DNA from: Fodinicurvata sediminis DSM 21159
GTDB lineage: Bacteria; Pseudomonadota; Alphaproteobacteria; Kiloniellales; DSM-21159
Direction: 5' to 3'
Length of the DNA stretch: 64,000 bases
NCBI RefSeq assembly: GCF_000420625.1
Contig: NZ_ATVH01000016.1
Location: forward strand, 1 to 64,000
Shown: positions 8,133 to 55,013 of the stretch, one piece after another
Layout: each line of letters begins with the position of its first letter
Position numbering within the stretch: the first letter of the stretch is position 1
The notes under the pieces: generated by a model
What the model saw: only the letters and a program-made list of their open reading frames with translations
Told to the model about the DNA's origin: nothing
Databases searched by the model: none
Translations under genes and position numbers: made by a program

Positions 8133-9017
8133 ATGACAAAGCGTATCGGATTCATCGGGGTCGGGCTGATGGGCTATGGGCCCGCGCGCCTGTTGCTGGA
8201 GGCGGGCTATCCCCTGACGCTGCTGGGACATCGCAACCGGGAGCCTGTGGACGACCTGGTGGGACGCGGCGCGCAGGAAGTGGCTAACGCCGCGGAGCTG
8301 GCGCGCGGCGTGGATGTGATCATCACCTGCGTTTCCTCCTCGGCCATCATGGAAAGCCTGGTCGAGGGCGCGCAGGGAATCCTGGACGGCGCACGCGAGG
8401 GGCAGATCCTGATCGACATGACGACGGCCGACCCACAGTCCACCTTGTCCCTGGCGGGCAAGCTGGCGGAGAAGGGGGTGCGCATGATCGACGCGCCCAT
8501 GAGCCGGACGCCGCGGGAGGCCCGGGAAGGACGCCTGAACCTGCTGCTGGGGGGCGAGGCGGCCGATCTCGACGAGGTCGAGCCCATCCTGTCGGTCTAT
8601 TCCGAAAATCGCTTCCGGGCCGGACCGCTGGGCAGCGGTCATACCGTGAAACTGATCAACAATGCGCTCTCGCTGGGACATGCCGCCCTGGCTGCGGAAG
8701 CTGCGGCAAGCTGTGAGGCCGCCGGGGTCGATCCTCAGGTGCTCTACGATATCGTCACCGCTGGCGGTGCCGACAGCAAGATGTTCCGCATGGTCATGCC
8801 GGCGGCCCTGGAGGGGCGTACGGACGGGCTGGAGTTCACGCTGCAGAACGCGCGCAAGGACTATGGCTATTACCTGAAATCCGCCCGCGATGCCGGCTGC
8901 GTTCCCATGACGACCCAAGCCATTCACCAGCTGTTAGAGCTGGCCCTGGCCCAGGGCAAGGGTAACGAGTATGTGCCCTATCTCTATCGGGTGATGCAGG
9001 GCTGGCGCACCAAGTGA
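8133..9017 (+). CDS. NAD(P)-dependent oxidoreductase, 3-hydroxyisobutyrate/tartronate-semialdehyde reductase family
   Basis: 294-aa cytosolic beta-hydroxyacid dehydrogenase. The N-terminal Rossmann fold starts GFIGVGLMGYGPARLLLEAG. DAPMSRTPREAREGRL matches the substrate-binding motif of the family, and the catalytic-lysine helix GHTVKLINNALSLGHAA is intact. In sugar-acid pathways this family (GarR) reduces tartronate semialdehyde to glycerate, which would fit the UxaA/GarD-type dehydratase nearby, but the substrate is not certain. ATG 8133 has GGGAGG seven bases upstream; a longer frame from 8073 would run through the operator and is rejected. Confidence 0.88.
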   Translation: MTKRIGFIGVGLMGYGPARLLLEAGYPLTLLGHRNREPVDDLVGRGAQEVANAAELARGVDVIITCVSSSAIMESLVEGAQGILDGAREGQILIDMTTADPQSTLSLAGKLAEKGVRMIDAPMSRTPREAREGRLNLLLGGEAADLDEVEPILSVYSENRFRAGPLGSGHTVKLINNALSLGHAALAAEAAASCEAAGVDPQVLYDIVTAGGADSKMFRMVMPAALEGRTDGLEFTLQNARKDYGYYLKSARDAGCVPMTTQAIHQLLELALAQGKGNEYVPYLYRVMQGWRTK

Positions 9018-9048
9018 TCCAGGACCCCTTACGCGGATAGGAGAATAC

Positions 9049-9993
9049 ATGTCCAAGTTTCCTCTTCTTGCCCTGTCCCCCCTGGGACCGTCGGATATCC
9101 AGGAGCAGCTCGATGCGGAATTCGAGTGCCACCTGGTCGGCCGCGACGGATCGCTGGAGGAGCTGCTCGAACGGGTGGGCGGCCAGGTCACGGCCCTGGT
9201 CACGACCGGCGGACGCGGCGCCGAGGCGGAGCTGATCGAGGCCCTGCCGAAGCTGCGCGTGATCGCCTGCTACGGTGTGGGGGTCGACGCGATCGATCAC
9301 GCGGCTGCTGGACGGCAGGGCGTGACTGTCACCAATACCCCGGATGTCCTGACCGACGATGTTGCGGACCTGGCGGTCTTCCTGTTGGGGAGTCTGCACC
9401 GCCTGCTCGTGCGTGGTGATCACTGGGTCCGTTCCGGCGCGTGGTCCCGTTCAGGTGATCTTCCCCTTGGGCGCAGCCTGCGCGGACGCCGTGCCGGCAT
9501 TCTGGGGCTGGGCCGCATTGGAGAGGCCACGGCGCGGCGCCTGGAGGTCTTCGGGATGGAGATCCTCTATCACAAGCGCAGCCCCAAGCCGGACTCGCGC
9601 TGGACCTACATGGACAGTCCCCAGGCGCTGGCCCGTCAGTGTGATGACCTCATGGTCTGCTGCAGCGGAGGGGCCGCGACCCGTCACCTGGTCGATGACA
9701 AGGTCCTGGAGGCCCTTGGGCCCACCGGAACGCTGGTGAACGTCGCGCGCGGCAGTGTGGTAGATGAAGGGGCGCTGATCGCCGCGCTGCAGGACGGGCG
9801 GGTCGCAGGTGCGGCACTGGATGTCTTCGAGAACGAACCGCAGGTGCCAGAAGCGCTCAGCGGCCGCGACAATGTGGTGCTGGCCCCGCATATCGGCAGC
9901 GCCACCTGGGAGACGCGGCGCGCGATGGGCAACCTGGTGCTGGACAATCTACGTGCGCACCGGGACGGGCGCGCATTGCTGACGCCTGTATAG
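9049..9993 (+). CDS. D-isomer-specific 2-hydroxyacid dehydrogenase
   Basis: 314-aa NAD(P)-dependent dehydrogenase acting on 2-hydroxy or 2-oxo acids (glyoxylate/hydroxypyruvate reductase type). The nucleotide-binding motif GLGRIGEATARRLEVFG, the catalytic arginine in NVARGSVVDEGALI, the Glu in ENEP and the catalytic His in LAPHIGSAT are all in order. It follows the reductase by 31 bp behind a TAGGAGAAT ribosome site, so the two form an operon. It ends 5 bp from the convergent GntR gene. Possibly it handles a keto-acid product of sugar-acid breakdown. Confidence 0.9.
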   Translation: MSKFPLLALSPLGPSDIQEQLDAEFECHLVGRDGSLEELLERVGGQVTALVTTGGRGAEAELIEALPKLRVIACYGVGVDAIDHAAAGRQGVTVTNTPDVLTDDVADLAVFLLGSLHRLLVRGDHWVRSGAWSRSGDLPLGRSLRGRRAGILGLGRIGEATARRLEVFGMEILYHKRSPKPDSRWTYMDSPQALARQCDDLMVCCSGGAATRHLVDDKVLEALGPTGTLVNVARGSVVDEGALIAALQDGRVAGAALDVFENEPQVPEALSGRDNVVLAPHIGSATWETRRAMGNLVLDNLRAHRDGRALLTPV

Positions 9994-9998
9994 CAGGG

Positions 9999-10730
9999 TC
10001 AGCCGGCAGCACCGCGTCCGGGGCCACTTTCCTTCAGGGTCCTGTACGAGCCGTAGTGCTGTTCCAGGTGCCGACGCATCGCCTCTTCGGCCGCATCCGG
10101 ACTGCCGCTCTCAATGGCCTCGACGATCTGGCGGTGCGCCTCGGAGGCGATCCTGTCCTCGCCGGGCCGTTGCAGGACGTGCGCGCGCCGATCGTCCAGC
10201 AGGGTGGACAGCGCCTCGTGCACGGCCATGATGATGGAATTGCCGCTTATCTCCGCAAGGGCGGCGTGAAAGGCCACATCCGAACGCTTGAAGGCTGGTT
10301 CGTCGCCAATGGTGCGCAGGTTGCTTTCCAGGGCCTCGCGCAGCAGGCGGTGGTCCTCCGGTGTTCCCTGTTCAGCGGCGTGGCGCGCAATGGCCACCTC
10401 GAACAGGACGCGCGCGTCCTGCAGTGAGGTTTGACCCTCGGGGTCTTCCAAAAGGCTGCGCACGGCGCCGGACAGGCGGGGCAGCACGCTTTCCAGCGTG
10501 GGCTTTATCACCCGTGGCCGGGTACCGCTGCTGATCGCGACAAATCCGAGTTTCTGCAGGTAGAACAGAGCCTCGCGAATGGCGGGGCGCCCAACGCCAA
10601 ACTGCTCCATCATCTCGCGTTCCGCCGGCAACTGGTCGCCTGCCTGGTAGTGGCCGTCGCGGATGTCCTGTTCCAGGCGTTCCGCCACCTGTTCCGACAG
10701 CGTCTTGCGTTCAATCTTGTAGGTTTTCAT
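9999..10730 (-). CDS. GntR-family (FCD/FadR subfamily) transcriptional regulator
   Basis: 243 aa. The N-terminal winged helix (about 1-75) reads LSEQVAERLEQDIRDGHYQ, GDQLPAEREMMEQFGVGRP and AIREALFYLQKLGFV. The C-terminal FCD domain (about 95-230) has the metal-site residues typical of this ligand-binding fold (FEVAIARHAAEQ, DVAFHAALAEISGN, EAHRQIVEAI). FCD regulators sense sugar acids or carboxylates and usually repress neighbouring catabolic genes. The start at 10730 follows AGGAACTGAA. Likely targets are the palindrome at 8075 or the repeats near 14060-14293. Confidence 0.9.
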   Translation of the reverse strand: MKTYKIERKTLSEQVAERLEQDIRDGHYQAGDQLPAEREMMEQFGVGRPAIREALFYLQKLGFVAISSGTRPRVIKPTLESVLPRLSGAVRSLLEDPEGQTSLQDARVLFEVAIARHAAEQGTPEDHRLLREALESNLRTIGDEPAFKRSDVAFHAALAEISGNSIIMAVHEALSTLLDDRRAHVLQRPGEDRIASEAHRQIVEAIESGSPDAAEEAMRRHLEQHYGSYRTLKESGPGRGAAG

Positions 10731-10927
10731 TTCAGTTCCTGCGCCGTGAAGCATGCGCTTTCACGGCCATGCCCCATGGATCACCAGCGTCCTTGCGGTT
10801 GACCCCGCACGCTTTTCCCAGAGGCGGAAATCCTTGTCATGAGAAAAAGTCTCCGAATGTTCGCCCCCAAACGCTCGCCCCTGGCGGCGTGGGGATGCGT
10901 GGGTGCCCCATGAGACCAGACTCGCTG

Positions 10928-12310
10928 TCAGCGGTAGAGCAGGCTGGGCAGCCACATGGAAATCGCCGGAATGAAGGTGATGAGCAGCAGAGAAATGACC
11001 AGAGGCACCAGGAACGGCAGGGTGCCGCGCATGCAGCGCTCGAACGAGACGCCGGACACGCGGGACAGGACGTAGAGAACCATGCCGACGGGCGGTGTCA
11101 GCAGGCCAATCATCAGGTTCAGCACCATGATCACGCCGAAATGGACCGGGTCGACGCCCACCTGGACCGCGACCGGCAGCAGCACCGGGACCAGAATGGT
11201 GATGGCGGCCACCGTCTCCATGAAACAGCCGACCACCAGCATGATGAGGGTCATGATCAGCAGGATGACCGCCTGGTTGTCCGTGTAGGCGGTGAGCAGG
11301 CCAGCAAAATGGTTGGTGAACTGGTTGCTGATCAGGATCCACGAGAAGATCGAGGCTGCCGCCACGACAAGCAGGATGATCGCAGTGGTCTCGATCGTCT
11401 CCATGCTGATGCGAAGCAGCCGCCGCGGCGGCAAGGTGCGATAGACGACGGTGCCGAGGAACAGCGCATAGACGACGGCTGCGATCGCGGCTTCGGTCGG
11501 CGTGAAGGCGCCGGAAATGATGCCGCCGATGATGATGAGCGGGGTCAAGAGCGACAGGAACGCTTTGCTAAAGGTTGACCACAGGCGGCGGAGATCGAAA
11601 CGGGTGTCGCGTGGATAGCCGCGGCGGCGGGCGATCCAGGCCACCATGATCATCAGGGTCGCGGCCATCAGCAGGCCCGGGATCAGGCCGGCGACGAACA
11701 GCTGGCCGATCGAGGCCGAGGCCATCACGCCATAGATCACCATGGGCAGGCTGGGGGGAATGATGGGGCCGATGGTCGAGGAGGCGGCGGTGATTCCGAT
11801 CGCGAAGTCGGAATCATAGCCGCGTTCGCGCATCGCCTTGATCTCGATGGTGCCAAGCCCGCCGGCATCCGCGACCGCAGCGCCGGACATGCCCGAGAAG
11901 ATGATGCTGGCGCCGATGTTGACGTGTCCCAGCCCGCCGCGCATCCAGCCCATCAGGGCGTTGGCGAAATTGAACAGCCGGTAGGTGATCCCCGCGCCGT
12001 TCATCAGCGTGCCGGCCAGGATGAAGAAGGGAATGGCGAGCAGCGGGAAACTGTCGACCCCGTTGATCATCCGGTGGGCGACGACGAAATCGGGAACCTG
12101 CCCGGTGACATAGACGAACAGAAGGCTGGAGCCGCCGAGGGACACCGCAACGGGAATACCTGCGAGCAGCATCGTGAAGAGAACGGCGAAGAGGAAGCCG
12201 AGGTCCTGTTCGGTCCAGGCCAGCCAGACGGAAAGCAGTGTACCGATGGCGAGAATGACAGGCGCAAAGATCCTGGGCCGCTGGCCCTGTGCCATGGGGG
12301 TCGCGGTCAT
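10928..12310 (-). CDS. TRAP transporter large permease (DctM subunit)
   Basis: 460-aa integral membrane protein, the ion-coupled channel subunit of a TRAP importer. Hydrophobic segments run along the whole length; family stretches include PFFILAGTLMNGAGI, GGLGHVNIGASIIFSGMSG, PPSLPMVIYG and LLTPPVGMVLYV. It works with the DctQ protein, overlapping it by 4 bp (ATGA), and receives substrate from the periplasmic DctP at 12977. Start 12310 is chosen from AGGAAAG upstream and the overlap; reading from 12391 would intrude deep into dctQ. Confidence 0.93.
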   Translation of the reverse strand: MTATPMAQGQRPRIFAPVILAIGTLLSVWLAWTEQDLGFLFAVLFTMLLAGIPVAVSLGGSSLLFVYVTGQVPDFVVAHRMINGVDSFPLLAIPFFILAGTLMNGAGITYRLFNFANALMGWMRGGLGHVNIGASIIFSGMSGAAVADAGGLGTIEIKAMRERGYDSDFAIGITAASSTIGPIIPPSLPMVIYGVMASASIGQLFVAGLIPGLLMAATLMIMVAWIARRRGYPRDTRFDLRRLWSTFSKAFLSLLTPLIIIGGIISGAFTPTEAAIAAVVYALFLGTVVYRTLPPRRLLRISMETIETTAIILLVVAAASIFSWILISNQFTNHFAGLLTAYTDNQAVILLIMTLIMLVVGCFMETVAAITILVPVLLPVAVQVGVDPVHFGVIMVLNLMIGLLTPPVGMVLYVLSRVSGVSFERCMRGTLPFLVPLVISLLLITFIPAISMWLPSLLYR

Positions 12311-12885
12311 CGGGTGCTTTCCTCGCTGTCTCGAGTCCCGGAATTGTGCTGGGGTCGGGTGGTGCTGAACCTCTGCGGCCAGACGCTCCACATACGATGG
12401 GCCATCCGAAGGGCCATGAGGGCGAATCCTGCACAGGCCATGTAATAGATGATGCTCTTGGGGATATCGACGGAGGCCATGTAGGAGCCTGTGCGTCCCG
12501 CCACTTCATAGCAAAGCCAGGCAAGGATGACGAAGAACACAAGGCATACAAGGTCGACGAACGAGGCCAGCAGCCGCCCGACAGGCGCGGACATGTATCG
12601 GTAGAGGAACTCCATCATGATATGGCTGTTCCGGCGCACCGCCATGGCGCCGCCCAGGAAGCCAACCCCAATCAGGAGGTAGCGCGCCATCTCCTCGGTC
12701 CAGCCAATCGAGTCGCCAAGTACAAAGCGCGTGAAAAATTGCGCAAAAACGTCGACGGCAAGCAGCCAGAAGACCAGAAGGACGATGTAGTCTTCCGGCG
12801 CAAATTCGGTGCGGTCAAATGGGGGTTCAGCCTCGAGCTCGAACGATTCTGATTCGGATGCGTCTTCCGGATGCGGATCGGTCAT
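12307..12885 (-). CDS. TRAP transporter small permease (DctQ subunit)
   Basis: 192-aa four-helix membrane protein. A long acidic cytoplasmic N terminus (residues 1-40, rich in E/D/S) precedes the first helix YIVLLVFWLLAVDVFAQFF. The family motifs WTEEMARYLLIGVGFLGGAMAVRRNSHI and the C-terminal helix are present. The start at 12885 has TTGGAG seven bases upstream. It overlaps dctM and is separated from dctP by a strong hairpin. Confidence 0.9.
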   Translation of the reverse strand: MTDPHPEDASESESFELEAEPPFDRTEFAPEDYIVLLVFWLLAVDVFAQFFTRFVLGDSIGWTEEMARYLLIGVGFLGGAMAVRRNSHIMMEFLYRYMSAPVGRLLASFVDLVCLVFFVILAWLCYEVAGRTGSYMASVDIPKSIIYYMACAGFALMALRMAHRMWSVWPQRFSTTRPQHNSGTRDSEESTR

Positions 12886-12925
12886 CTTCAACTCCAAGGC
12901 TGTGGGAGCAAACGCAAGGGCACGG

Positions 12926-12962
12926 CTCCCCGCCTGCCATGCTCGATCCGGCAGGCGGGGAG
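12926..12962 (-). promoter_or_regulatory. Intra-operon hairpin between dctP and dctQ
   Basis: CTCCCCGCCTGCC (12926-12938) pairs perfectly with GGCAGGCGGGGAG (12950-12962), a 13-bp GC-rich stem with an 11-nt loop and no T tract. It lies directly after the dctP stop in the transcription direction. Such hairpins protect the upstream mRNA or partly terminate, giving many copies of the binding protein per membrane complex. Confidence 0.75.
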
Positions 12963-12976
12963 AGCGTTAAGCGTGA

Positions 12977-13960
12977 TCAGAGGTTCTGGAGGCGATCGAA
13001 GGTTTCCTGGGACCAGTCGACGTCTTCACCTGTCAGGTGCGGACGCACGGTCTCGCGGAAGGCTTCGCGGTCCACATCCTGATTGACCGTCGTTCCTTCG
13101 TCCTCGAACCAGGCGACCAGTTCCTGCTCGGACTCGATGATATCCTGGGTGGCGCCCTGGGCCGCTTCCTCTAGGACGTTGGTGAGGATCTCCTGGTCCT
13201 CCTCGGAAAGCGCATTCCAGGTCATTCCGCTGACGATGGTCAGCAGCGAGTCCGTGATGTGGCCGGTCAGGTTGATGTAATCCTGGACTTCATAGAACTT
13301 CTTCGCCCGGATGGTGTTGAGCGGGTTTTCCTGGGCATCGACCGTGCCCTGCTGCAAGGCCAGGTAGACCTCGGCAAAGGCGATCGGCGTCGGGTTGGCG
13401 CCGACGGCTTCCGGCATCATCATGTACAGTGGCGCATTGGGTGTGCGGATCTTCAGCCCTTCCATGTCGGAGGGCGTGTCGACTTCCGTGTTCGAGGTGA
13501 CATGGCGCTGGCCGTAATAGGTCTGGGTTATGACCTTGTTGTCGGTCTCGTCCCGATAGCCCTGGGCCAGTTCGCGAAACAGGTCGCTCTCGCGGTATGC
13601 CTTCCAGTGATCGACATCGCGGAACATGTAGGGCGCGCCGGCAATGCCGATCGGGCCATAGGAGCGAGCGGCAAACTGGTTGCCGGTGTAGATCACGTCG
13701 ACCGTGCCCAGGCCGAGCCCTTCGTTGATGTCCACTTCCTTGCCCAGCGAAGAGGCCGGAAAGACCTCCATCGTATGCCGGCCGTCGGTGCGTTTCTCGA
13801 GTTCGTCCGCGGCCCAGACTGCCCATTCGTGAAAGGGCTCCGAGGTCTCGTAGACATGGGCGAACTTCATGTCCTTGGCAGATGCGGTGTTCGCTGTCGC
13901 CACGGCCCCGACTGCGAGGGCCATCAATCCACATTTTCCCAGAAACGTAAGCTTGGTCAT
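12977..13960 (-). CDS. TRAP transporter substrate-binding protein (DctP family)
   Basis: 327-aa periplasmic protein with a signal peptide (residues 1-27, cleavage near TASA). After the leader come KFAHVYETSEPFHEWAVWAADELE, the KTDGRHTMEVFP-like strand (RTDGRHTMEVFP), DVIYTGNQFAA, LKIRTPNAPLYMMMPEAVGA and the carboxylate-recognition segment with EVYLALQQGTVDAQENPL. The Arg in KIRTPN forms the salt bridge to the carboxylate of ligands in this family. The linked dehydratase suggests a sugar acid (hexuronate or aldarate). Start 13960 follows GGAGGAAAACAGCTC. It is first in the operon dctP-dctQ-dctM. Confidence 0.93.
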   Translation of the reverse strand: MTKLTFLGKCGLMALAVGAVATANTASAKDMKFAHVYETSEPFHEWAVWAADELEKRTDGRHTMEVFPASSLGKEVDINEGLGLGTVDVIYTGNQFAARSYGPIGIAGAPYMFRDVDHWKAYRESDLFRELAQGYRDETDNKVITQTYYGQRHVTSNTEVDTPSDMEGLKIRTPNAPLYMMMPEAVGANPTPIAFAEVYLALQQGTVDAQENPLNTIRAKKFYEVQDYINLTGHITDSLLTIVSGMTWNALSEEDQEILTNVLEEAAQGATQDIIESEQELVAWFEDEGTTVNQDVDREAFRETVRPHLTGEDVDWSQETFDRLQNL

Positions 13961-47078: not shown

Positions 47079-48119
47079 GTGGAAGATACCGACAGAGACC
47101 AGAGCATGATTGGTAGTAAGCGAATCTCCGGGATCATCATCGTCTGTTTCCTGCTGGCTCAGTTTGTTTTTGCCGGCCTGACCCTGGCACAGGAGGGTCC
47201 GCTGGCCTCCTGGAACGAAGGGTCTGCCAAGTCCGCCATTCTTGAGTTCGTGGCCGAAACAACCAAGCCGGCTAGCCCGGACTACGTCGCCCCCGAGGAA
47301 CGGATCGCGGTATTCGACAACGACGGCACGCTCTGGTCCGAGAAACCCCTGTACTTCCAGGTGATGATGGCAATCGATCAGCTGCAGGCGATGGCGACAG
47401 AGACTCCCGAGTGGGCGGAAAACCAGCCATTCAAGGCAGCGCTGGAAGAGGATTTCGGGGCTGTTGCGGCCTCTGGCGGCAAGGGGCTCATGAAGCTGCT
47501 TAGCGCAACCCAGAGCGGATCAAGCGACAGGACCTTCACGCGCGAAGTCGAGGCCTGGCTCGACACAGCGCGTCATCCGCGTTTCGGAAAAACCTTCACC
47601 GAACTGGTCTACCAGCCCATGCTGGAGCTGCTCGATTACTTGAGGACGCATGGATTCAGCACCTGGATCGTTTCGGGCAGCGGCATCGATTTCATGCGCG
47701 CCTGGACAGAGGAGGCCTATGGCATTCCGCCCGAGCAGGTGATCGGCTCCCAAGTCGAACTCGACTATGTCATGGATGGCGGGACGCCCAGCTTCCAGCG
47801 CCGGCCCGGGAATTTCTTCTTCAACGACGGACCGAACAAGGCCATCGCCATCAAGCGCCATATGGGGCGCCAGCCTGTCATTGCCTTCGGAAATTCCGAT
47901 GGGGATCTGGAAATGCTCGAATGGACGACAGCGGGCGAAGGCCCGCGCCTCGGAGTGCTCATCCACCACACGGATGCGAAGCGTGAATGGGCTTATGATC
48001 GCAAGAGTGATATCGGACGGTTGGACAAGGCGCTGGACGCGGCCCCGGAGCATGATTGGCTCGTTGTCGACATGGCTGCGGACTGGGCGAGAATCTATCC
48101 CTGGCAGACGGCTCCATGA
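47079..48119 (+). CDS. Exported HAD-family phosphatase
   Basis: 346 aa, with an N-terminal membrane-targeting segment (GIIIVCFLLAQFVFAGLTLA, about 18-37) consistent with a signal peptide or anchor. HAD motif I is IAVFDNDGTLW, motif II IVSGSG, motif III has the Lys in NKAIAIKRH, and motif IV is FGNSDGDLEML, all intact. A cap domain lies between I and II. Relatives are phosphoserine-phosphatase-like exported phosphatases. GTG 47079 follows GGGGGGAT; ATG 47106 is an alternative. It overlaps the Hen1-like gene by 4 bp (ATGA). Confidence 0.85.
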   Translation: MEDTDRDQSMIGSKRISGIIIVCFLLAQFVFAGLTLAQEGPLASWNEGSAKSAILEFVAETTKPASPDYVAPEERIAVFDNDGTLWSEKPLYFQVMMAIDQLQAMATETPEWAENQPFKAALEEDFGAVAASGGKGLMKLLSATQSGSSDRTFTREVEAWLDTARHPRFGKTFTELVYQPMLELLDYLRTHGFSTWIVSGSGIDFMRAWTEEAYGIPPEQVIGSQVELDYVMDGGTPSFQRRPGNFFFNDGPNKAIAIKRHMGRQPVIAFGNSDGDLEMLEWTTAGEGPRLGVLIHHTDAKREWAYDRKSDIGRLDKALDAAPEHDWLVVDMAADWARIYPWQTAP

Positions 48120-48733
48120 CCACCTGGATCCATGAGCAGCGACTGTCCACGGTTTATCAGGCAGTTCTGGATAGCGAGGCGCGCACGGTGCTCGATCTTG
48201 GCTGTGGAGAGGGCGATCTGTTCCTGCGCCTGATGCATGCCCCCGGAGTGGAAAGGCTGGTGGGCGTTGACCTTTCTACCGAGGCCCTGGATTGTCTGCG
48301 CGCCAGATTGGCTGAACAGGAAAAGACACCCAGCGCACAGATCGAACTGATCCAGGCTTCGATGATTGAGCCCGGCCCGGGTCTTTCGGGTTTTGACTGT
48401 GCCGTTCTGTTGGAAACGCTGGAACATCTCGATCCCGGACGCTTGTCTATCCTGGAAACTGCGCTGTTCCACAAGATGCGTCCCGCAAGTGTGATCGTGA
48501 CGACACCCAATGCCGACTATAACGAGTTTCTGGGTGTCCCTTCCCATCGGTTCCGTCATCCCGATCACCGTTTCGAGTGGGGGCGGCGGAAATTCCGGAG
48601 TTGGGCCGAGGGGGTTGCGAAACGCAATGACTGCAGTGTTGTCACGCGCGATCTGGCCGGTGCGCATCCCTTCTATGGGGGCGTGAGCCAGATGGCCGTT
48701 TTTACCAAACAGAGTGAGGCGGCCGCGCGTTGA
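48116..48733 (+). CDS. Hen1-like 3'-terminal RNA 2'-O-methyltransferase domain, stand-alone
   Basis: 205-aa SAM methyltransferase. It opens HEQRLSTVY, then motif I VLDLGCGEGDLFLRL, VGVDLS, and the Hen1-specific metal site E100-x-x-E103-H104 in LETLEHLDPGRL, followed by VIVTTPNADYN and RHPDHRFEWGRRKF with further His ligands. This pattern is diagnostic of bacterial Hen1, which methylates the 2'-OH of 3' ends during RNA repair. The usual N-terminal Hen1 domain and the Pnkp partner gene are absent nearby. The start at 48116 overlaps the HAD stop. Function is inferred only from motifs. Confidence 0.8.
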   Translation: MTTWIHEQRLSTVYQAVLDSEARTVLDLGCGEGDLFLRLMHAPGVERLVGVDLSTEALDCLRARLAEQEKTPSAQIELIQASMIEPGPGLSGFDCAVLLETLEHLDPGRLSILETALFHKMRPASVIVTTPNADYNEFLGVPSHRFRHPDHRFEWGRRKFRSWAEGVAKRNDCSVVTRDLAGAHPFYGGVSQMAVFTKQSEAAAR

Positions 48734-48776: not shown

Positions 48777-49247
48777 TTACTGTGCCTGGGCGGTCTGGCT
48801 GGTCTTCAACTGTTCGAAGAGGTCTGCCATCTTCTGGCCGGCACGCCCGGGGTGCTTGACGTCCTCGGCCGCATCGGCGTTGGCCATGTCGTCGCCCACC
48901 TTGATGACGCCAACCATGCCCATGCCGTAGTGTGGCAGGCACTTGTAGCCATAAAGGCCTTCCTGGTCGAAGGTAACGGTGATCTCCTCGTTCATGGCAC
49001 CTTTCCATTCTTCGGCGCCTTCGGGCAGCATGCCGGGAATGATCTCCGCGTTGTGGTTCCTGTCGGTCAGCACGAAGGTCACGCTGTCGCCGGGCTCGAT
49101 CTCGAGATAGGCCGGCTCGAAGGCCATGGGCTGGCCGTCCGCGCCCTTGTTCAGCATCTCGACTTCGTAGTCGGCAGCCAGGGCTGTGCTCGCGAAAAGC
49201 AGGCCCGCTGCAAGTGCCAGGGAGAATGGAATGTTCAGTGCTTTCAT
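48777..49247 (-). CDS. paz: Pseudoazurin (type 1 copper protein)
   Basis: 156-aa periplasmic blue copper protein. The signal peptide is about residues 1-24 (FASTALA). Copper ligands are the His in LTDRNHNAEIIPG and Cys, His and Met in GYKCLPHYGMGMVG. Pseudoazurin passes electrons to copper nitrite reductase or cytochrome partners, and nirK lies 4 kb away. AAGGA precedes the start. A candidate NnrR-like site is 92 bp upstream. The C-terminal tail after residue 125 (ADAAEDVKHPGRAGQKM) is longer than the classical protein. Confidence 0.92.
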   Translation of the reverse strand: MKALNIPFSLALAAGLLFASTALAADYEVEMLNKGADGQPMAFEPAYLEIEPGDSVTFVLTDRNHNAEIIPGMLPEGAEEWKGAMNEEITVTFDQEGLYGYKCLPHYGMGMVGVIKVGDDMANADAAEDVKHPGRAGQKMADLFEQLKTSQTAQAQ

Positions 49248-49559
49248 CAGTCCGGTCCTTATTTCGGCTGTTGCGGTTGCCTGAATGCTCGGCAACCGCG
49301 TCATGCCTGCTCTTATAGGCGTGTTCGGGCTGAGCGACTTTGCGCTGGAACAAATTCATGGATTGAAAATACTGTTTATCGTTCATAGCCTTGCGAAATT
49401 CTTTGCGAGAGCACCAACGGCTTCCTGCAGTTAATTTTGTTTATGCTGCACCGACGGAGTTGCATTGGTGCAAACGATAATCCCGAGGGGGTGGCCAGGA
49501 CGGCGCTGGAAGAGGGCGCAGGGTAGGAAAAGCCCGCTCGGACCGGTGAGGGGATTGTC
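49248..49559. promoter_or_regulatory. Divergent promoter region of pseudoazurin and qNor with two Crp/Fnr-type sites
   Basis: Two sites are seen in the 312-bp gap. TTTGCGCTGGAACAAA (49339-49354) lies 92 bp from the pseudoazurin start; its right half GGAACAAA equals that of the nirK site. TTGCATTGGTGCAA (49460-49473, perfect TTGCA-N4-TGCAA) lies 87 bp from the qNor start. The TTGNN-N4-NNCAA layout is that of Crp/Fnr-family NO regulators (NnrR/Dnr). Another TTGCGA direct repeat is at about 49391-49407, which may be accidental. Confidence 0.72.
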
Positions 49560-51866
49560 ATGACCAATACGAAACAACTCTGGATCTTTCTGGCTGTCCT
49601 GCTTGGGGTTTCCTTTGCGGTACTTCTCTGGAGCGGCAACCAGATCTACCAGGCAGCACCTCCGGTCCCCGAGGAAGTGGTCACCACCGAAGGGGAAACC
49701 GTCTATACGCGTGCGGACATCGAGAAGGGCCGCCGGGTCTGGCAATCCATGGGCGGCATGCAGTTGGGCTCGATCTGGGGGCACGGTGGCTATGTGGCTC
49801 CGGACTGGAGTGCCGACTGGCTGCACCGTGAACTTATGTTCCTGCTCGATCGCTGGGCTCAGGAGGAATACGACACCGCTGGCTACGAGGAGTCGAGCAA
49901 CCAGCAGAAGGCGGCTCTGCGTGGCCGGCTGACCGCACAGATGCGCGAGAACACCTACGATCCCGAAAGCGGCACGATCACGATCAGTCAGGATCGTGCC
50001 GAGGCGATCGAAGCGGTTTCCGCGCACTACGAGAGTCTGTTCGGCAACGATCCGGAAACGGCGGACCTGCGCGAAGCCTACGCGATGAAGAACGACACGG
50101 TGCCGGATCCGGAAAATCGGCAGGTGATGTCGGCCTTCTTCTGGTGGTCCGCCTGGTCAGCGGCCACGGAGCGGCCAAACGACTCGATTACCTATACCAA
50201 CAACTGGCCGAGCGAGCCGCTGATCGAGAACCGGCCGCCCTCAAGCACCTTCCTGTGGTCCGCCTTCAGCGTGATTTTCCTGCTGGGAGGAATAGCCCTG
50301 CTGGGCTGGCACTATGCCGTAAGCCATTCCCGGGAAGAGGAGCCGCACCGCCTACCGGAATTCGATCCCATGCGGCATCTCAAGCCCACGCCCTCCATGA
50401 TGGCGACGGCGAAATACTTCTGGGTCCTGCTGGCCCTGTTCCTGCTGCAGATCCTGCTGGGCGCGATCACGGCCCACTACCAGGTCGAGGGCCAGGTGAT
50501 GTACGGCTTCGAACTGGCCGAGATTCTACCCTATTCAATCACCCGGACCTGGCATACACAGCTGGCAGTGCTGTGGATCGCACTGGCTTGGCTGGGCACC
50601 GGTCTCTACATCGCACCGGCGGTCTCGAATTATGAACCGCCCTACCAGCGCCTGGGTGTCAATCTTCTCTGGCTCTGCCTGCTGATTATCGTGGTGGGTG
50701 CCTTTGTCGGCCAGTGGCTGGCTGTGATGCAGGAACTGGGGCTGGAGAACAATTTCTATTTCGGTCACCAGGGCTGGGAGTACGCCGACATCGGCCGTTT
50801 CTGGCAATACTTCCTGTTCATCGGTCTGCTTCTCTGGTTGTTCCTGGTGGGCCGGGCGCTCTGGCCCACGCTGACCGGCAATTCGGAATCACGCTCTATC
50901 GTCGGCCTGCTGTTCCTGTCGACAGTGGCCATTGGCCTCTTCTTCGGGGCCGCCCTGATGTGGGGCGAGAACACCCACCTCTCCATTGTCGAGTACTGGC
51001 GCTGGTGGCTGGTTCACCTCTGGGTCGAGGGCTTCTTCGAGGTCTTTGCCACCGCAGTGATTGCCTTCCTCTTCACGCGTCTCGGCCTTTTGCCCGTGAG
51101 GACGGCGACCGTGGCGGTCCTGTTCGCCACCATCATCTTCATGGCCGGTGGCGTGCTGGGCACACTGCATCACCTCTACTTCGCCGGTTCGCCGACGCCG
51201 GTACTGGCACTTGGTGCCAGCTTCTCCGCCCTGGAGGTGGTGCCGTTGGCCTATGTCGGTTTCGAGGCCTATCACCACTACCGATTGGGCGTGGCGACCC
51301 GTTGGATGCAACGCTATCGTTGGCCGGTCATGTTCTTCTTGGCGGTGGCCTTCTGGAATCTTGTGGGCGCCGGGCTGTTCGGTTTCCTGATCAATCCGCC
51401 GCTTTCGCTGTATTACATGCAGGGCCTGAATCTGACGCCGCTGCATGGGCATACGGCCCTGTTCGGGGTCTACGGCATGCTGGGCATTGGGTTGGTACTG
51501 TTCTGCCTGCGCGGAATAAAGCCCAATCTTGCCTGGCCGGAAGGCACTCTCAAGGTCAGCTTCTGGTGCCTCAACATCGGACTGGCCCTGATGGCCTTGC
51601 TGACCCTGCTGCCGCTGGGTGTCATGCAGCTGTTTGCATCTCTCGAGCACGGCTATTGGTACGCCCGTTCGGCCGAGTTCATGCAGCAGCCCATCGTCGA
51701 CTTGCTGGTCTGGCTGCGAGTTCCAGGGGATACGATCTTTTCCATCGGTGCCCTGGCGCTGGCGTACTTCGTCATCCGGCTATGGGTGTTTCCGCGCCGC
51801 GAGGACGAACAGCCTGTCGAGCAGGGTGAAGGCGCTTATGCCGGGTCAACGGGGTATCGCCGTTGA
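49560..51866 (+). CDS. norZ: Quinol-dependent nitric oxide reductase (qNor)
   Basis: 768-aa membrane enzyme reducing 2 NO to N2O with electrons from quinol. A fused N-terminal extension (about 1-230) with a first helix, RRVWQSMGGMQLGSIWGHGG and FFWWSAWSA precedes the 12-helix NorB core. Haem and iron ligands are the His in TRTWHTQLAVLWIA, LVHLWVEGFFEV (His with conserved Glu), TLHHLYF (His-His) and LHGHTALFG (His-x-His). The soluble extension replaces NorC, as no norC gene follows. Start 49560 has GAGGGG upstream. It is followed by sirB2 at 38 bp. Confidence 0.95.
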   Translation: MTNTKQLWIFLAVLLGVSFAVLLWSGNQIYQAAPPVPEEVVTTEGETVYTRADIEKGRRVWQSMGGMQLGSIWGHGGYVAPDWSADWLHRELMFLLDRWAQEEYDTAGYEESSNQQKAALRGRLTAQMRENTYDPESGTITISQDRAEAIEAVSAHYESLFGNDPETADLREAYAMKNDTVPDPENRQVMSAFFWWSAWSAATERPNDSITYTNNWPSEPLIENRPPSSTFLWSAFSVIFLLGGIALLGWHYAVSHSREEEPHRLPEFDPMRHLKPTPSMMATAKYFWVLLALFLLQILLGAITAHYQVEGQVMYGFELAEILPYSITRTWHTQLAVLWIALAWLGTGLYIAPAVSNYEPPYQRLGVNLLWLCLLIIVVGAFVGQWLAVMQELGLENNFYFGHQGWEYADIGRFWQYFLFIGLLLWLFLVGRALWPTLTGNSESRSIVGLLFLSTVAIGLFFGAALMWGENTHLSIVEYWRWWLVHLWVEGFFEVFATAVIAFLFTRLGLLPVRTATVAVLFATIIFMAGGVLGTLHHLYFAGSPTPVLALGASFSALEVVPLAYVGFEAYHHYRLGVATRWMQRYRWPVMFFLAVAFWNLVGAGLFGFLINPPLSLYYMQGLNLTPLHGHTALFGVYGMLGIGLVLFCLRGIKPNLAWPEGTLKVSFWCLNIGLALMALLTLLPLGVMQLFASLEHGYWYARSAEFMQQPIVDLLVWLRVPGDTIFSIGALALAYFVIRLWVFPRREDEQPVEQGEGAYAGSTGYRR

Positions 51867-51903
51867 TCCGGCGATCCAGTCAGTACAGCTGGGACCAGCC
51901 TGA

Positions 51904-52305
51904 ATGATCGAATTCTATTCGGAAATCAGGCTGGTCCACATCTGGGCCGTGCTTGCCAGTGGCGGACTTTTCCTGTTGCGGGGGCTTGCGCTCTTCGCCG
52001 GTACGCGCTGGTACATGGCCGCGCTTGTGCGCTATCTCAGCTATACCATCGACACCATACTGCTGACGGCCGCGCTGATACTGATGACAATCGTGCAGCA
52101 GTATCCCGTCTTCGATGACTGGCTGACGGTGAAAGTGCTGCTGTTGGTGGTCTACATCCTGCTGGGCTATTACGCCTTCTGGAAGGCGCGGAGCCGCATG
52201 ATGCAGGTCGGTGCCTGGCTCGCGGCGCTGCTGGTCTACGCGTTCATCTTTTCCATCGCACGCGCACATCATCCTCTGGGGGTCTTCTATACACTTGCGG
52301 GGTGA
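51904..52305 (+). CDS. SirB2-family membrane protein
   Basis: 133-aa protein with four predicted helices: VHIWAVLASGGLFLLRGLAL, IDTILLTAALILMTIVQQYP, LTVKVLLLVVYILLGYYAFW and VGAWLAALLVYAFIFSIARAH. The conserved His near the N terminus and the closing ARAHHP are family features. SirB2 function is unknown, but homologues often lie beside NO or nitrite reductase genes. It follows qNor by 38 bp and is convergent with the alternative-oxidase homologue. Confidence 0.85.
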   Translation: MIEFYSEIRLVHIWAVLASGGLFLLRGLALFAGTRWYMAALVRYLSYTIDTILLTAALILMTIVQQYPVFDDWLTVKVLLLVVYILLGYYAFWKARSRMMQVGAWLAALLVYAFIFSIARAHHPLGVFYTLAG

Positions 52306-52326
52306 AGCGCCCACAAGCGTTTACGC

Positions 52327-52986
52327 CTACAGAAGAGGAGAGGGCGGATCGGGCAGGTCCTGCCCATTTGCCAGGGCGGTCGCGAAGCCGTGATTGATAT
52401 CGCGGTGAATGGCTTCGTCTGCCTGCATGGCAACGATGGCGTCCCTAAGGCGCGCGTCCGGTGCCAGGTTCCAATAGGCGATGGCCACCTCAGGGGCTGG
52501 CGGGTTCTCCCGCTGTTCCTGGTCGATTTCCCGCAGGTACTCTGCGTAACCCTTGACGGCATCCTCGGCAAAATAGCCGGTGAGTCGGTGGGCGGTCCTG
52601 GGGGAGAAGAGGCAGATCAGGAAGTGGGCGTTATAGAACAGGCCCTGGGCCAGGAGGATCAGGATCCGTTCGAAACCGTTCGGTCGGTCGAGGGTGACGA
52701 AAACCATCAGGTGCGTGCGCTGATTCTCGGCTTCGTCCATCAGGCTGCGCACCCAGCCGCGATCGTCCTGGAGGCGCCGCAGGCATTTCAGGTGCAACAG
52801 CGTGGCGGCAACCATACCCGGCACGGCGGCTATGGTTTCAAGGACGATGGTACGGTTTCCATAGCGCCGTCCGAAAAGGCTCCGGGCAAGCGCGCCGAGT
52901 CCGCGTACCAGGGCCAGGGCAAAACGGTCCGAAAGACCGTGGGGGGCGTGATGGTGTGTCAGGTCCGTCTTGTCGATCTGCAACAT
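52327..52986 (-). CDS. Alternative oxidase (AOX) family protein with a changed ligand
   Basis: 219-aa di-iron membrane-associated protein. Strong AOX blocks: VLETIAAVPGMVAATLLHLK (Glu50), WVRSLMDEAENQRTHLMVF, FSPRTAHRLTGYFAEDAVKG and QADEAIHRDINHGFA (Glu191, His194, His198). AOX oxidises ubiquinol and reduces oxygen to water without pumping protons. In the second helix motif the family has E-N-E-R-M-H; here it is E87-N-Q89-R-T-H92, so an iron-binding Glu is Gln. The third block reads FAEDA instead of LEEEA. The protein may be inactive or altered. It is 105 bp after nirK with a hairpin between them. Confidence 0.87.
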   Translation of the reverse strand: MLQIDKTDLTHHHAPHGLSDRFALALVRGLGALARSLFGRRYGNRTIVLETIAAVPGMVAATLLHLKCLRRLQDDRGWVRSLMDEAENQRTHLMVFVTLDRPNGFERILILLAQGLFYNAHFLICLFSPRTAHRLTGYFAEDAVKGYAEYLREIDQEQRENPPAPEVAIAYWNLAPDARLRDAIVAMQADEAIHRDINHGFATALANGQDLPDPPSPLL

Positions 52987-53028
52987 GGAGCGGTCTGCAC
53001 CTGCAAGGGTTGAGGGGCCACTATACAG

Positions 53029-53053
53029 ATCGGCTGCCCAGAGGGCAGCCGAT
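53029..53053 (-). terminator. Hairpin between nirK and the AOX gene
   Basis: ATCGGCTGCCC / GGGCAGCCGAT is an 11-bp perfect stem with a 3-nt loop, between the nirK stop and the AOX start on the minus strand. There is no strong T tract. It likely ends or stabilises the nirK message and lowers AOX expression if the two are co-transcribed. Confidence 0.7.
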
Positions 53054-53091
53054 TCGTTGCAGTTTCTGTACCAGACTTCTCGAGGCGAGGC

Positions 53092-54141
53092 TCAGGACGT
53101 CGGCTCCTTGGCCTCATGCTCCTTGAAGATCTCCGGGTTCTCCGGACCTTCCACCACCAGGTGGCCGGCAAGGCCGCGTTCGGCGCGCGAGAGGGCGTGG
53201 TCCACCAGGACATAGGTGCCCGGTACTTCCATCTCCAGGTCCACAATCGAGGCGCCGCCCGGGGGCACGCTGATGGTCTGGACATCCATCAGGGGTGCGC
53301 TGGTCAGCGAAGCGTCCGAGTAGACCGTGTCGAAGATCTCGCCGATCACGTGGAACGATGAGGTCTTGTTCGGCCCGCCGACCCCGAAGAAGATCCGGAT
53401 GCTTTCCCCGACTTCTGCCGTCAGGGCCTTGTCGCCGGTAAGGGCCTGGGCTGCGCCGTTGAAGACATAGTACTCCGGCTGTTCGGCCGAGAGCTTCTCG
53501 TAGCTCTCCATCAGCTCGCCCCTGGTGCCGAAGGGTTCCTCGGTGTAGAGCTCGCCCTGCATGACGTAGAACTCGCGATCGACTTCCGGCAGGCCGCCTT
53601 CAGGCTCGACCAGGATCATGCCGTACATGCCGTTCGAGATGTGGTGGGCCACGCTCGGCACCGCGCAGTGGTAGACATAAAGCCCGGGCTTGAGGGCCTT
53701 GAAGCTGAAGCCGTTTGACTCTTCTCCCGGATAGGCCATGGTGGCCCCGCCCCCGCCGTGGGGCCCGGTGACTGCATGGAAGTCCACGTTATGCGGCATC
53801 CAGCTGTCCTCGGCATTCTTCATCGAAACCTCGACCGTATCCCCGACGCGGACCCGGACCATGGGGCCCGGTACCTGACCGTTGAAGGTCCAATAACGAT
53901 AGGTGGTTCCATCATCCAGCTGGCCTACCTTCTCGATGGTTTCCAACTCCACCTTGACGGTTTCCGGTTCCGTGCGGTCGATGGCGGGCGGCAGATCGGT
54001 GGGAGCGCGCACGATGTCGGCAACTCCTGCAGTCTGCGCGCTCTCGGGCGCCTTGTCCTCTGCCAGTGCAGATCCGAAACCGCCAAGGGCTATGGCCAGG
54101 GCCAGTGCGCTTGTCGTGGTGACCAGGTTGTTGCGTTTCAT
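53092..54141 (-). CDS. nirK: Copper-containing nitrite reductase (class II NirK)
   Basis: 349-aa periplasmic enzyme reducing nitrite to NO. The signal peptide covers about residues 1-27. Cupredoxin 1 contains MPHNVDFHAVTG with type 1 and type 2 copper His, and YHCAVPSVAHHISNGMYGMI with Cys, His and Met; the AHHISNGMYG form is the AniA-like class II type. Cupredoxin 2 provides the His in SSFHVIGEIFDTV and near VDHALSRAERGLAGH. Start 54141 follows AAGGAGCAAGACG. The NO-regulator palindrome at 54221 is 80 bp upstream. NO it makes would be removed by qNor. Confidence 0.96.
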   Translation of the reverse strand: MKRNNLVTTTSALALAIALGGFGSALAEDKAPESAQTAGVADIVRAPTDLPPAIDRTEPETVKVELETIEKVGQLDDGTTYRYWTFNGQVPGPMVRVRVGDTVEVSMKNAEDSWMPHNVDFHAVTGPHGGGGATMAYPGEESNGFSFKALKPGLYVYHCAVPSVAHHISNGMYGMILVEPEGGLPEVDREFYVMQGELYTEEPFGTRGELMESYEKLSAEQPEYYVFNGAAQALTGDKALTAEVGESIRIFFGVGGPNKTSSFHVIGEIFDTVYSDASLTSAPLMDVQTISVPPGGASIVDLEMEVPGTYVLVDHALSRAERGLAGHLVVEGPENPEIFKEHEAKEPTS

Positions 54142-54220
54142 CGTCTTGCTCCTTGAACGAACGCGTGTCAGGACATCCCGTGATGTCCCGATCCTTATGC
54201 GGCAAAATGCGGACACGAAC

Positions 54221-54236
54221 TTTGTTCCGGAACAAA
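54221..54236. promoter_or_regulatory. 16-bp palindrome between nirK and the Crp/Fnr gene
   Basis: TTTGTTCCGGAACAAA is perfectly palindromic (TTGTT-N4-AACAA, Crp/Fnr-type spacing). It is centred about 88 bp from the starts of both divergent genes, nirK and the regulator at 54318. It matches the half-site near pseudoazurin (49339). Likely the binding site of the regulator itself, activating nirK and its own gene. Confidence 0.78.
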
Positions 54237-54317
54237 CTACGGTGATTTTTATCGCTCGGCCGGGAGGTTGCCGCTAGACTCCGGGCAGACTGCAAGGGGC
54301 TGGGATCGAGATTATCT

Positions 54318-55013
54318 ATGGAGGGGAAAGCCGACCTGGATGTGCTGGCCGGAACGGAGTTGTTTCGTGGCCTGTCCCGTCAGGCATTGGAGGACATCTG
54401 GACCCAGGGCTTCCGCAAGCAGGTGCCGAACGGGACGGCCCTCTTCCTGCAGGACGATCCTGTCACAGCCCTTTACGTTCTGATTGTGGGGCGCTTGCGC
54501 GTCACCCAGACCACCGTCGAGGGGGCGCAAGTCATCCTGCGTTACCTGGGACCCGGCGAACTGGCGGGCTATGTCGCCCTCTCCGGGGCCGGCAGCTATC
54601 CAGGCAGTGTGACGGCTGTCGAGGATTCTCATCTGCTGGGTTGGTCCAGGCAGGCCATACGCGATCTCATGGAACGCCATTCGCAAGTGGCGCTCAACAG
54701 CGTGTCGGTCCTGGGGCGGCGTTACCAGGAGACGCAACTTCGTTTGCGCGAGCTGTCCACGGAGAAGGTGGAACGACGGATCGCTCATACGCTCCTGCGC
54801 CTTGCGGGGCAGGCCGGTCGCCGCACCCCCGAAGGAATCGAGATCGCCTTTCCCCTCTCGCGCCAGGACCTGGCCGAGATGGCCGGCACCACATTGCACA
54901 CCGCAAGTCGTATCCTGAGCAACTGGGAAAAGCAGGGTCTGGTCCTGAGCGGCCGCCGCCGCATCATGGTCCGTTTGCTGGACACGCTGAGCACCATTGC
55001 CGAAAGCGGTTGA
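54318..55013 (+). CDS. Crp/Fnr-family regulator, NnrR/Dnr-like
   Basis: 231 aa. The N-terminal cyclic-nucleotide-binding-like domain (about 1-120) is followed by a dimerisation helix and the winged HTH (about 165-225) with SRQDLAEMAGTTLHTASRIL, then NWEKQGLV. The protein contains no cysteine at all, so it cannot carry an Fnr-type Fe-S cluster, which points to a haem/NO-sensing regulator such as Dnr or NnrR. The recognition helix GTTLHTASRIL is close to NnrR. Targets should be the palindromes at 49339, 49460 and 54221. It is divergent from nirK. Confidence 0.9.
   Translation: MEGKADLDVLAGTELFRGLSRQALEDIWTQGFRKQVPNGTALFLQDDPVTALYVLIVGRLRVTQTTVEGAQVILRYLGPGELAGYVALSGAGSYPGSVTAVEDSHLLGWSRQAIRDLMERHSQVALNSVSVLGRRYQETQLRLRELSTEKVERRIAHTLLRLAGQAGRRTPEGIEIAFPLSRQDLAEMAGTTLHTASRILSNWEKQGLVLSGRRRIMVRLLDTLSTIAESG

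Follow-up and report, generated by a model that had tools for sequence, protein, structure and literature searches.

The first 64,000 nucleotides of contig NZ_ATVH01000016.1 of Fodinicurvata sediminis DSM 21159 (the window, in what follows) hold, between positions 48,777 and 55,013, six contiguous genes whose products are, according to open reading frames and family models, a pseudoazurin, a quinol-dependent nitric oxide (NO) reductase (qNor), a SirB2-family membrane protein, a homologue of AOX, the copper nitrite reductase NirK and an NnrR-like Crp/Fnr regulator, so that the contiguous island proposed in the initial annotation is confirmed. The reading developed here, which we consider rather probable on the basis of sequence comparisons, is that this island constitutes a local NnrR-type regulon, and that its AOX homologue is not a conventional quinol oxidase.

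The pseudoazurin gene paz (48777..49247, minus strand; TIGR02375, 158.6 bits against a cut-off of 109.85) faces away from qNor (49560..51866, plus strand), whose product consists of a NorB-type haem-copper subunit with a fused N-terminal cytochrome c-like domain (PF22085 and PF00115) and aligns almost full-length with solved quinol-type NO reductases (E 3.6e-251). The sirB2 gene (51904..52305, plus strand; PF04247) follows 37 bp further on the same strand; a SirB2 57% identical to it is encoded near NirK in a Caulobacterales metagenome-assembled genome (L149, 14881-15285). On the minus strand, nirK (53092..54141; TIGR02376, 360.7 bits against a cut-off of 296.3) precedes by 105 bp the gene for the AOX homologue (52327..52986; PF01786, 222.9 bits), in which two diiron ligands are replaced, and the regulator gene (54318..55013, plus strand) completes the set. 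The coordinates of Paz and NirK start at an internal ATG and not at the start of the longest open reading frame. Since nirK and the AOX homologue, on the one hand, and qNor and sirB2, on the other, are co-directional and separated by these distances, each pair probably shares a transcript, which gives paz, qNor-sirB2, nirK-AOX homologue and the regulator as the likely units of transcription. The pseudoazurin is likely the electron donor to NirK, and SirB2 may be a recurrent neighbour of nitrogen-oxide genes. In the comparison with the sister species F. fenggangensis, the ratios of non-synonymous to synonymous substitution rates (dN/dS) are 0.126 for paz, 0.13 for sirB2, 0.103 for nirK and 0.083 for the regulator gene.

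The AOX homologue is the sole AOX of the genome and belongs to the family by fold as well as by profile: a structure model built from an eight-sequence alignment (predicted local distance difference test, pLDDT, 71.9; predicted template modelling score, pTM, 0.75) yielded 14 Foldseek matches with E ≤0.001, all 14 of them trypanosome AOX chains (query-based template modelling score, TMq, 0.74-0.78). What it lacks, and what the initial annotation had missed, is two of the six diiron ligands of AOX, namely E123, E162, H165, E213, E266 and H269 in the trypanosome numbering (verified against the trypanosome AOX sequence). The NERMHL motif has become NQRTHL, leaving Q89 as the equivalent of E162, and LEEEA has become FAEDA, leaving A140 as the equivalent of E213; the equivalents of E123, H165, E266, H269 and Y220 are retained. 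This combination of Gln and Ala is present in the nine members (the window protein, L073, L053, L074, L076, L077, L078, L079 and L081) of a single clade, which receives a support of 100 in a 40-row tree, while Glu stands at both columns in 31 of 31 other AOX (30 from a class-wide search, plus L117), and likewise in 16 weaker AOX matches from a phylum-wide search (five from genomes among the 31) and in five further ones. AOX fragments (the second match of G073, G184, G283, G349 and G366) and upstream regions shorter than 150 bp were left out of the ligand and box counts. No columns other than 89 and 140 are fixed differently between the nine and the 31; column 146, adjacent to the Y220 equivalent, is Gly in eight of the nine versus Ser in 31/31, and H269 is kept in 8/9, L077 having Gln there. 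AOX profile scores are bimodal as well (418, 404 and 388 bits in three genomes, ≤291 in the other 16). The altered homologues keep full-length frames and are 60-86% identical to the window protein (70% for L053), whose dN/dS of 0.099 against F. fenggangensis resembles those of NirK and the regulator; by this measure, the AOX homologue is under purifying selection.

The regulator encoded at 54318 combines a cyclic nucleotide monophosphate (cNMP)-binding domain with a Crp-type helix-turn-helix domain (PF00027 and PF13545, above cut-off), contains no cysteine and hence no FNR cysteine cluster, and is 90% identical to its counterpart in F. fenggangensis DSM 21160. Its relatives were collected from 80 loci of 574 candidates passing the contig search, plus seven loci from other genomes; L052 and L055, duplicates of L073 and L095, were left out of the regulator tree and of the box, AOX-pair and geometry counts given below. 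Among the loci listed, these relatives adjoin nnrS, nirK and paz in Bradyrhizobium, Agrobacterium, Azospirillum and others, the window regulator grouping with those found beside nirK, nnrS, paz and nor, and the recognition helix TTLHTxSR is invariant, except for x, across eight aligned relatives. Because of these neighbourhoods and of the helix, the regulator is placed by sequence in the alphaproteobacterial NnrR clade, in agreement with its initial description as cysteine-free and NnrR-like, and it would sense NO and bind the boxes described below. In a quick tree of 91 rows (with Shimodaira-Hasegawa-like approximate likelihood ratio, SH-aLRT, support only, and none of the rows named as an experimentally studied NnrR), it falls in a 12-row group (SH-aLRT 99) comprising all nine regulators that adjoin an altered AOX homologue, together with L075, L080 and L082; in L080 and L082 a contig end cuts off the flank expected to carry the AOX gene. 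Some neighbourhoods deserve mention in their own right. At L075 (4228-10792) the upstream genes read, by eye, like ubiD, ubiX and hemN, the position of the AOX gene being taken by the hemN-like one, and nirK lies downstream. At L079 (Bradyrhizobium elkanii WSM2783; 8753-11113 and 11725-13266) genes reading, by eye, like ubiT, ubiV, ubiU and ubiD, which stand for oxygen-independent ubiquinone synthesis, are found beside the regulator and the AOX homologue. A record titled Bacillus subtilis SK6B4 (L138) contains an alphaproteobacterial-type NnrR-paz-nnrS locus and is probably mislabelled or contaminated.

The three palindromes that had been proposed as a shared family of sites are all present, i.e., TTTGTTCCGGAACAAA between nirK and the regulator gene (54221..54236), TTTGCGCTGGAACAAA between paz and qNor (49339..49354) and TTGCATTGGTGCAA before qNor (49460..49473), with distances from site centre to start codon of about 87 bp for NirK, 89 for the regulator, 99 for Paz and 93 for qNor. 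According to a matrix of 93 distinct 16-mers taken from the promoters of relatives (Fodinicurvata loci excluded), the box at 49339 has the top score of the 64-kb window (21.8 bits), that at 54221 comes second (20.5 bits), and the third rank is held by a weaker match, TTTGCGAGAGCACCAA, in the same paz/qNor intergenic region (49402..49417, 10.5 bits). As a null, 1000 random 300-bp draws from positions 1-47000 of the window gave a best score of 8.6 and a 99th percentile of 7.1. From the matrix ranks compared with these draws, 49339 and 54221 are strong, and 49460 is borderline. The two strong sites resemble the published NnrR consensus, ctTTGcgnnnncgCAAag (PMC1274295), and stand, as such boxes do, before denitrification genes; the box of B. 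diazoefficiens norC is given as TTGCGCCCTGACAA (PMC6710368). With up to three mismatches, TTTGTTCCGGAACAAA is found twice in the window versus 0.04 expected, and the exact pattern TTTGYNNNNNNRCAAA eight times genome-wide versus twice in the control, two of the eight falling in the island. Of the remaining TTTGYN6RCAAA sites, six in number, one is flanked by genes identified by eye as ruvX-like and gatC/A-like, and the others seem to fall within or next to unrelated reading frames. Elsewhere in the genome, the best matrix score was 17.2 (in 166,023 bases, overlaps included, from stretches chosen by pattern or gene matches). A fourth candidate, TTGTCGATCTGCAA at 52970, was rejected, as it falls within the initial codons of the AOX homologue, with a score of 4.1 bits.

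The same type of box recurs in the relatives. In 84 loci, Fodinicurvata excluded, TTGN8CAA within 300 bp upstream was found for 21 of 25 Paz genes (shuffle mean 1.95), 44 of 52 NirK genes (3.95), 50 of 63 NnrS genes (5.45), 62 of 86 regulator genes (6.5) and five of eight AOX-family genes (0.55), as well as for 3 of 11 genes matching the qNor query (0.5), most of which are distant (25-28% identity); these counts are not independent, because many Bradyrhizobium loci are near copies. Among the five qNor relatives with more than 45% identity, two have a strong box (L056, 20.5 bits; L057, 22.0 bits) and three have none. The 14-mer of 49339 recurs upstream of two Paz genes and one NirK gene of the relatives. 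When 135 target promoters of the relatives are averaged, identical stretches being counted once, similarity to TATAAT peaks at distances of 31 and 32 bp from the centre of the site (2.17 and 2.01 of 6; mean 1.24, standard deviation 0.36), in agreement with the spacing rule for class II activation. In the island, TATAAG (5/6) lies 32 bp from the centre of 49339 towards paz, and CATAAG (4/6) 32 bp from the centre of 54221 towards nirK, from which a class II activator geometry is predicted at both. Towards qNor, no -10-like hexamer is found at 31-32 bp from 49460, and the best one for 49339 read in the plus direction matches 4/6 at 33 bp. In the regulator-gene promoters of the relatives, the highest similarity to TATAAT is located at 17 bp.

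The comparison with F. fenggangensis separates the sites further. The 16-mers of 49339 and 54221 are identical in the two species, that of 54221 inside a 42-bp identical block, and the stretch aligned to 49460 reads CTGCAAAAATGCAG, where the palindrome is retained and TTG...CAA is lost. This species has also lost qNor, a deletion that the initial annotation had not noticed: a relic of 47 C-terminal codons, matching residues 722-768, is all that is left. The degradation of 49460 alongside the loss of qNor agrees with a link between the element and qNor, or with plain decay, this being a single case. The altered AOX homologue is kept in this species (G001, apparently the genome of DSM 21160, whose gene order and identities it shares).

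The association between the AOX homologue and the regulator was approached from both sides. Five of seven divergent AOX-homologue/regulator pairs contain a strong box (17.6-22.0 bits, the own locus being left out of the matrix), and 29 other AOX genes reach at best 10.6 bits, with TTGN8CAA in two of the 29. AOX-first searches, covering 385 and 398 genomes, met three altered members (G000, G006 and G705), all beside the regulator, and around other AOX loci (n=30, about 1.5 kb on each side) no match to the other proteins of the island was found. Among these loci, no other gene accompanies this regulator subclade as constantly as the AOX homologue.

There is, nonetheless, a series of observations that weigh against a local regulon including the AOX homologue. 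The association count is biased, because it was the regulator search that led to eight of the nine members; two of the seven divergent pairs (L074 and L076) are near copies, and two others (L053 and L077) have no good box in the intergenic region (best scores -3.9 and -5.4 bits). L075, of the same regulator subclade and with an uncut contig, has no AOX homologue beside the regulator, and in Caulobacter sp. RHG1 (L117) an AOX with normal ligands and an NnrR-clade regulator are encoded about 5 kb apart. As for the sites, no -10-like hexamer lies 31-32 bp from 54221 in the direction of the regulator gene, and the palindrome at 49459/49460 scores 8.1 bits, rank 5 in the window. The loose TTGN8CAA core shows no enrichment there (7 occurrences versus 11.6 expected), and TTTGTTCCGGAACAAA with up to three mismatches occurs ten times genome-wide versus eight for the reversed control, with no excess; the pattern alone thus proves little, and a genome-wide claim based on it was rejected. 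The view of three equal sites of one family is not supported, 49460 being a doubtful candidate by score, promoter geometry and conservation, and the initial proposal of a small regulon under the local regulator is upheld in part: the regulator is of the NnrR clade and two boxes are of the NnrR type, which in relatives is seen ahead of paz, nirK, nnrS and the gene of the regulator itself, and the third site is weak.

In the favoured reading, that of a local NnrR-type regulon, NO would activate the regulator, probably through haem, under low oxygen and in the presence of nitrite; haem-mediated NO sensing has been proposed for DNR and NnrR. The activated regulator would recruit RNA polymerase at nirK-AOX homologue and at paz, and activation of qNor-sirB2 might proceed from 49339 read in the opposite direction, or else from the weak site at 49460. 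Pseudoazurin would then feed NirK, whose product, NO, would be reduced to N2O by qNor. The AOX homologue would be a membrane-bound protein with a quinone pocket and an altered or absent metal centre, working when NO is present in NO handling, with a different acceptor or in a non-catalytic role.

It is probably not an ordinary quinol oxidase, because two ligands are lost and published ligand mutants are inactive or severely impaired: a change of any of the six AOX ligands is described as very harmful (PMC6213860), and Ciona AOX with four ligands changed to Ala as dead (PMC4682143). The main rival view, namely that of a working quinol:O2 oxidase with a diiron site rearranged around the Gln and a neighbouring Glu, which would serve as an NO-insensitive bypass as in Vibrio fischeri, seems to us possible although somewhat unlikely. 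It draws on the retention of the E123, H165, E266 and Y220 equivalents in all nine members and of H269 in 8/9, on the membership of AOX in the V. fischeri NsrR regulon (PMC1274295) and on the NO-induced aox reported for Sphingopyxis granuli (PMC6472365), but all nine members have other residues in place of two carboxylate ligands, with nothing comparable in any of the 31 others, and the mutants just cited concern these very sites.

A more specific proposal, that the AOX homologue is an NO-dependent quinol enzyme under NnrR-type control, whose metal site, rebuilt through E162Q and E213A, consumes NO or reduces nitrite, is one that we regard as doubtful. It is in keeping with the retention of the homologue in F. 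fenggangensis, where qNor was deleted, and with the gene content of the genomes concerned. Eight of the nine genomes with an altered AOX encode a NirK above the TIGR02376 cut-off (the exception being G803, Chelatococcus composti), as do 11 of 13 when four further genomes are included. The qNor query found an NO reductase only in the window genome and, weakly, in B. elkanii WSM2783 (G801; E 9.4e-25, 26% identity); this search for NO removal extended beyond qNor only to NnrS, and that in the window genome alone, and several of the nine are metagenome-assembled genomes whose completeness is not stated. The pattern of NirK without an NO reductase is in any case only suggestive, because NirK without nor is described as not unusual (PMC4250227). 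Nitrogen-oxide chemistry on an AOX scaffold is conceivable, since a nitrite:NO reductase activity has been argued for plant AOX (PMC12404724).

Two other rivals concern the regulator. One, in which some other Crp/Fnr protein of the cell occupies the boxes and the local regulator has other targets, is improbable in our view. The genome does encode four cNMP-domain regulators, one of them FnrL-like (C15:54083; 199.7 bits, model cut-off 300), yet FNR boxes are given as TTGATnnnnATCAA (PMC1274295) and TTGAT is absent from all three island sites; in the relatives, moreover, boxes of the island's type are found again before the gene of the NnrR-clade regulator and before its neighbours. It is less probable still that NO control is exerted by an Rrf2 protein (NsrR- or RirA-like) encoded on contig C15, the palindromes being incidental. 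This protein is encoded directly before an nnrS gene (C15, about 52380-54650; L059), with the FnrL-like regulator gene converging on both, and NsrR controls nirK, norB and AOX in other bacteria (PMC1274295), but it stays below the NsrR and RirA cut-offs, scoring marginally higher as RirA, and the conserved blocks of both promoters centre on Crp/Fnr-type boxes. Finally, a decaying AOX gene, for which one may invoke that decaying enzymes often lose catalytic residues and that wheat AOX-like proteins lacking some diiron residues are known (PMC6213860), was rejected on dN/dS and is very improbable, given the same two replacements in nine genomes and the full-length frames.

The island is not as self-contained as had been claimed, since a second NirK (C20:161570-162481; L238, 8559-9740; 351 bits, above the TIGR02376 cut-off), which has a counterpart in F. 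fenggangensis (G001:C7), and two NnrS genes lie elsewhere in the genome. No TTGN8CAA box was found upstream of the second NirK nor upstream of the nnrS of C15. Within the window, a lone protein at 48056-48733 resembles the bacterial Hen1 RNA methyltransferase model in its C-terminal part alone (model positions 263-462), with a score under the cut-off.

The conservation of the AOX fold with exactly two metal ligands changed, in step with an NO regulator, amounts to a natural experiment on what an AOX scaffold can do beyond O2 reduction. If the AOX homologue handled NO or nitrite, it would be a new type of NO-metabolising enzyme in bacteria with NirK and without a recognised NO reductase, which would bear on the release of NO and N2O by such bacteria; without activity, it would represent a pseudo-oxidase conserved in bacteria and serving in regulation or protection. 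The module formed by regulator, box and gene is, besides, small and open to testing, and its host is a harmless, salt-loving bacterium. A literature search judged by titles, which is not proof of absence in print, gave no description of an NnrR-controlled or ligand-altered AOX, and one on Fodinicurvata denitrification yielded nothing. As far as those titles show, the pairing of an AOX-family gene with an NnrR-type Crp/Fnr regulator and the ligand-altered AOX clade are new.

The regulatory wiring itself is of the known NnrR regulon type (PMC1274295, PMC6710368). With the alphaproteobacterial NnrR regulons described for Rhodobacter sphaeroides and Bradyrhizobium diazoefficiens (PMC1274295, PMC6710368), the island shares a Crp/Fnr protein without the FNR cysteine motif and TTTGcg-type boxes that precede nir, nor and nnrS genes, and the same class II promoter geometry is seen in the targets of its NnrR-clade relatives. 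Unlike in them, the strong boxes serve here nirK with the AOX homologue, and paz, the NO reductase is of the quinol type with a weak box of its own, and the nnrS genes lie elsewhere, no TTGN8CAA box having been found upstream of the C15 copy. In V. fischeri, too, a gene of the AOX family belongs to an NO regulon, that of NsrR (PMC1274295), although the regulator is an Rrf2 repressor there and a Crp/Fnr protein here. Wheat AOX-like proteins also lack some residues of the diiron centre (PMC6213860), but they are plant paralogues. With trypanosome AOX, in turn, the homologue shares family and fold, and differs in having, in all nine members, Gln and Ala as the equivalents of E162 and E213.

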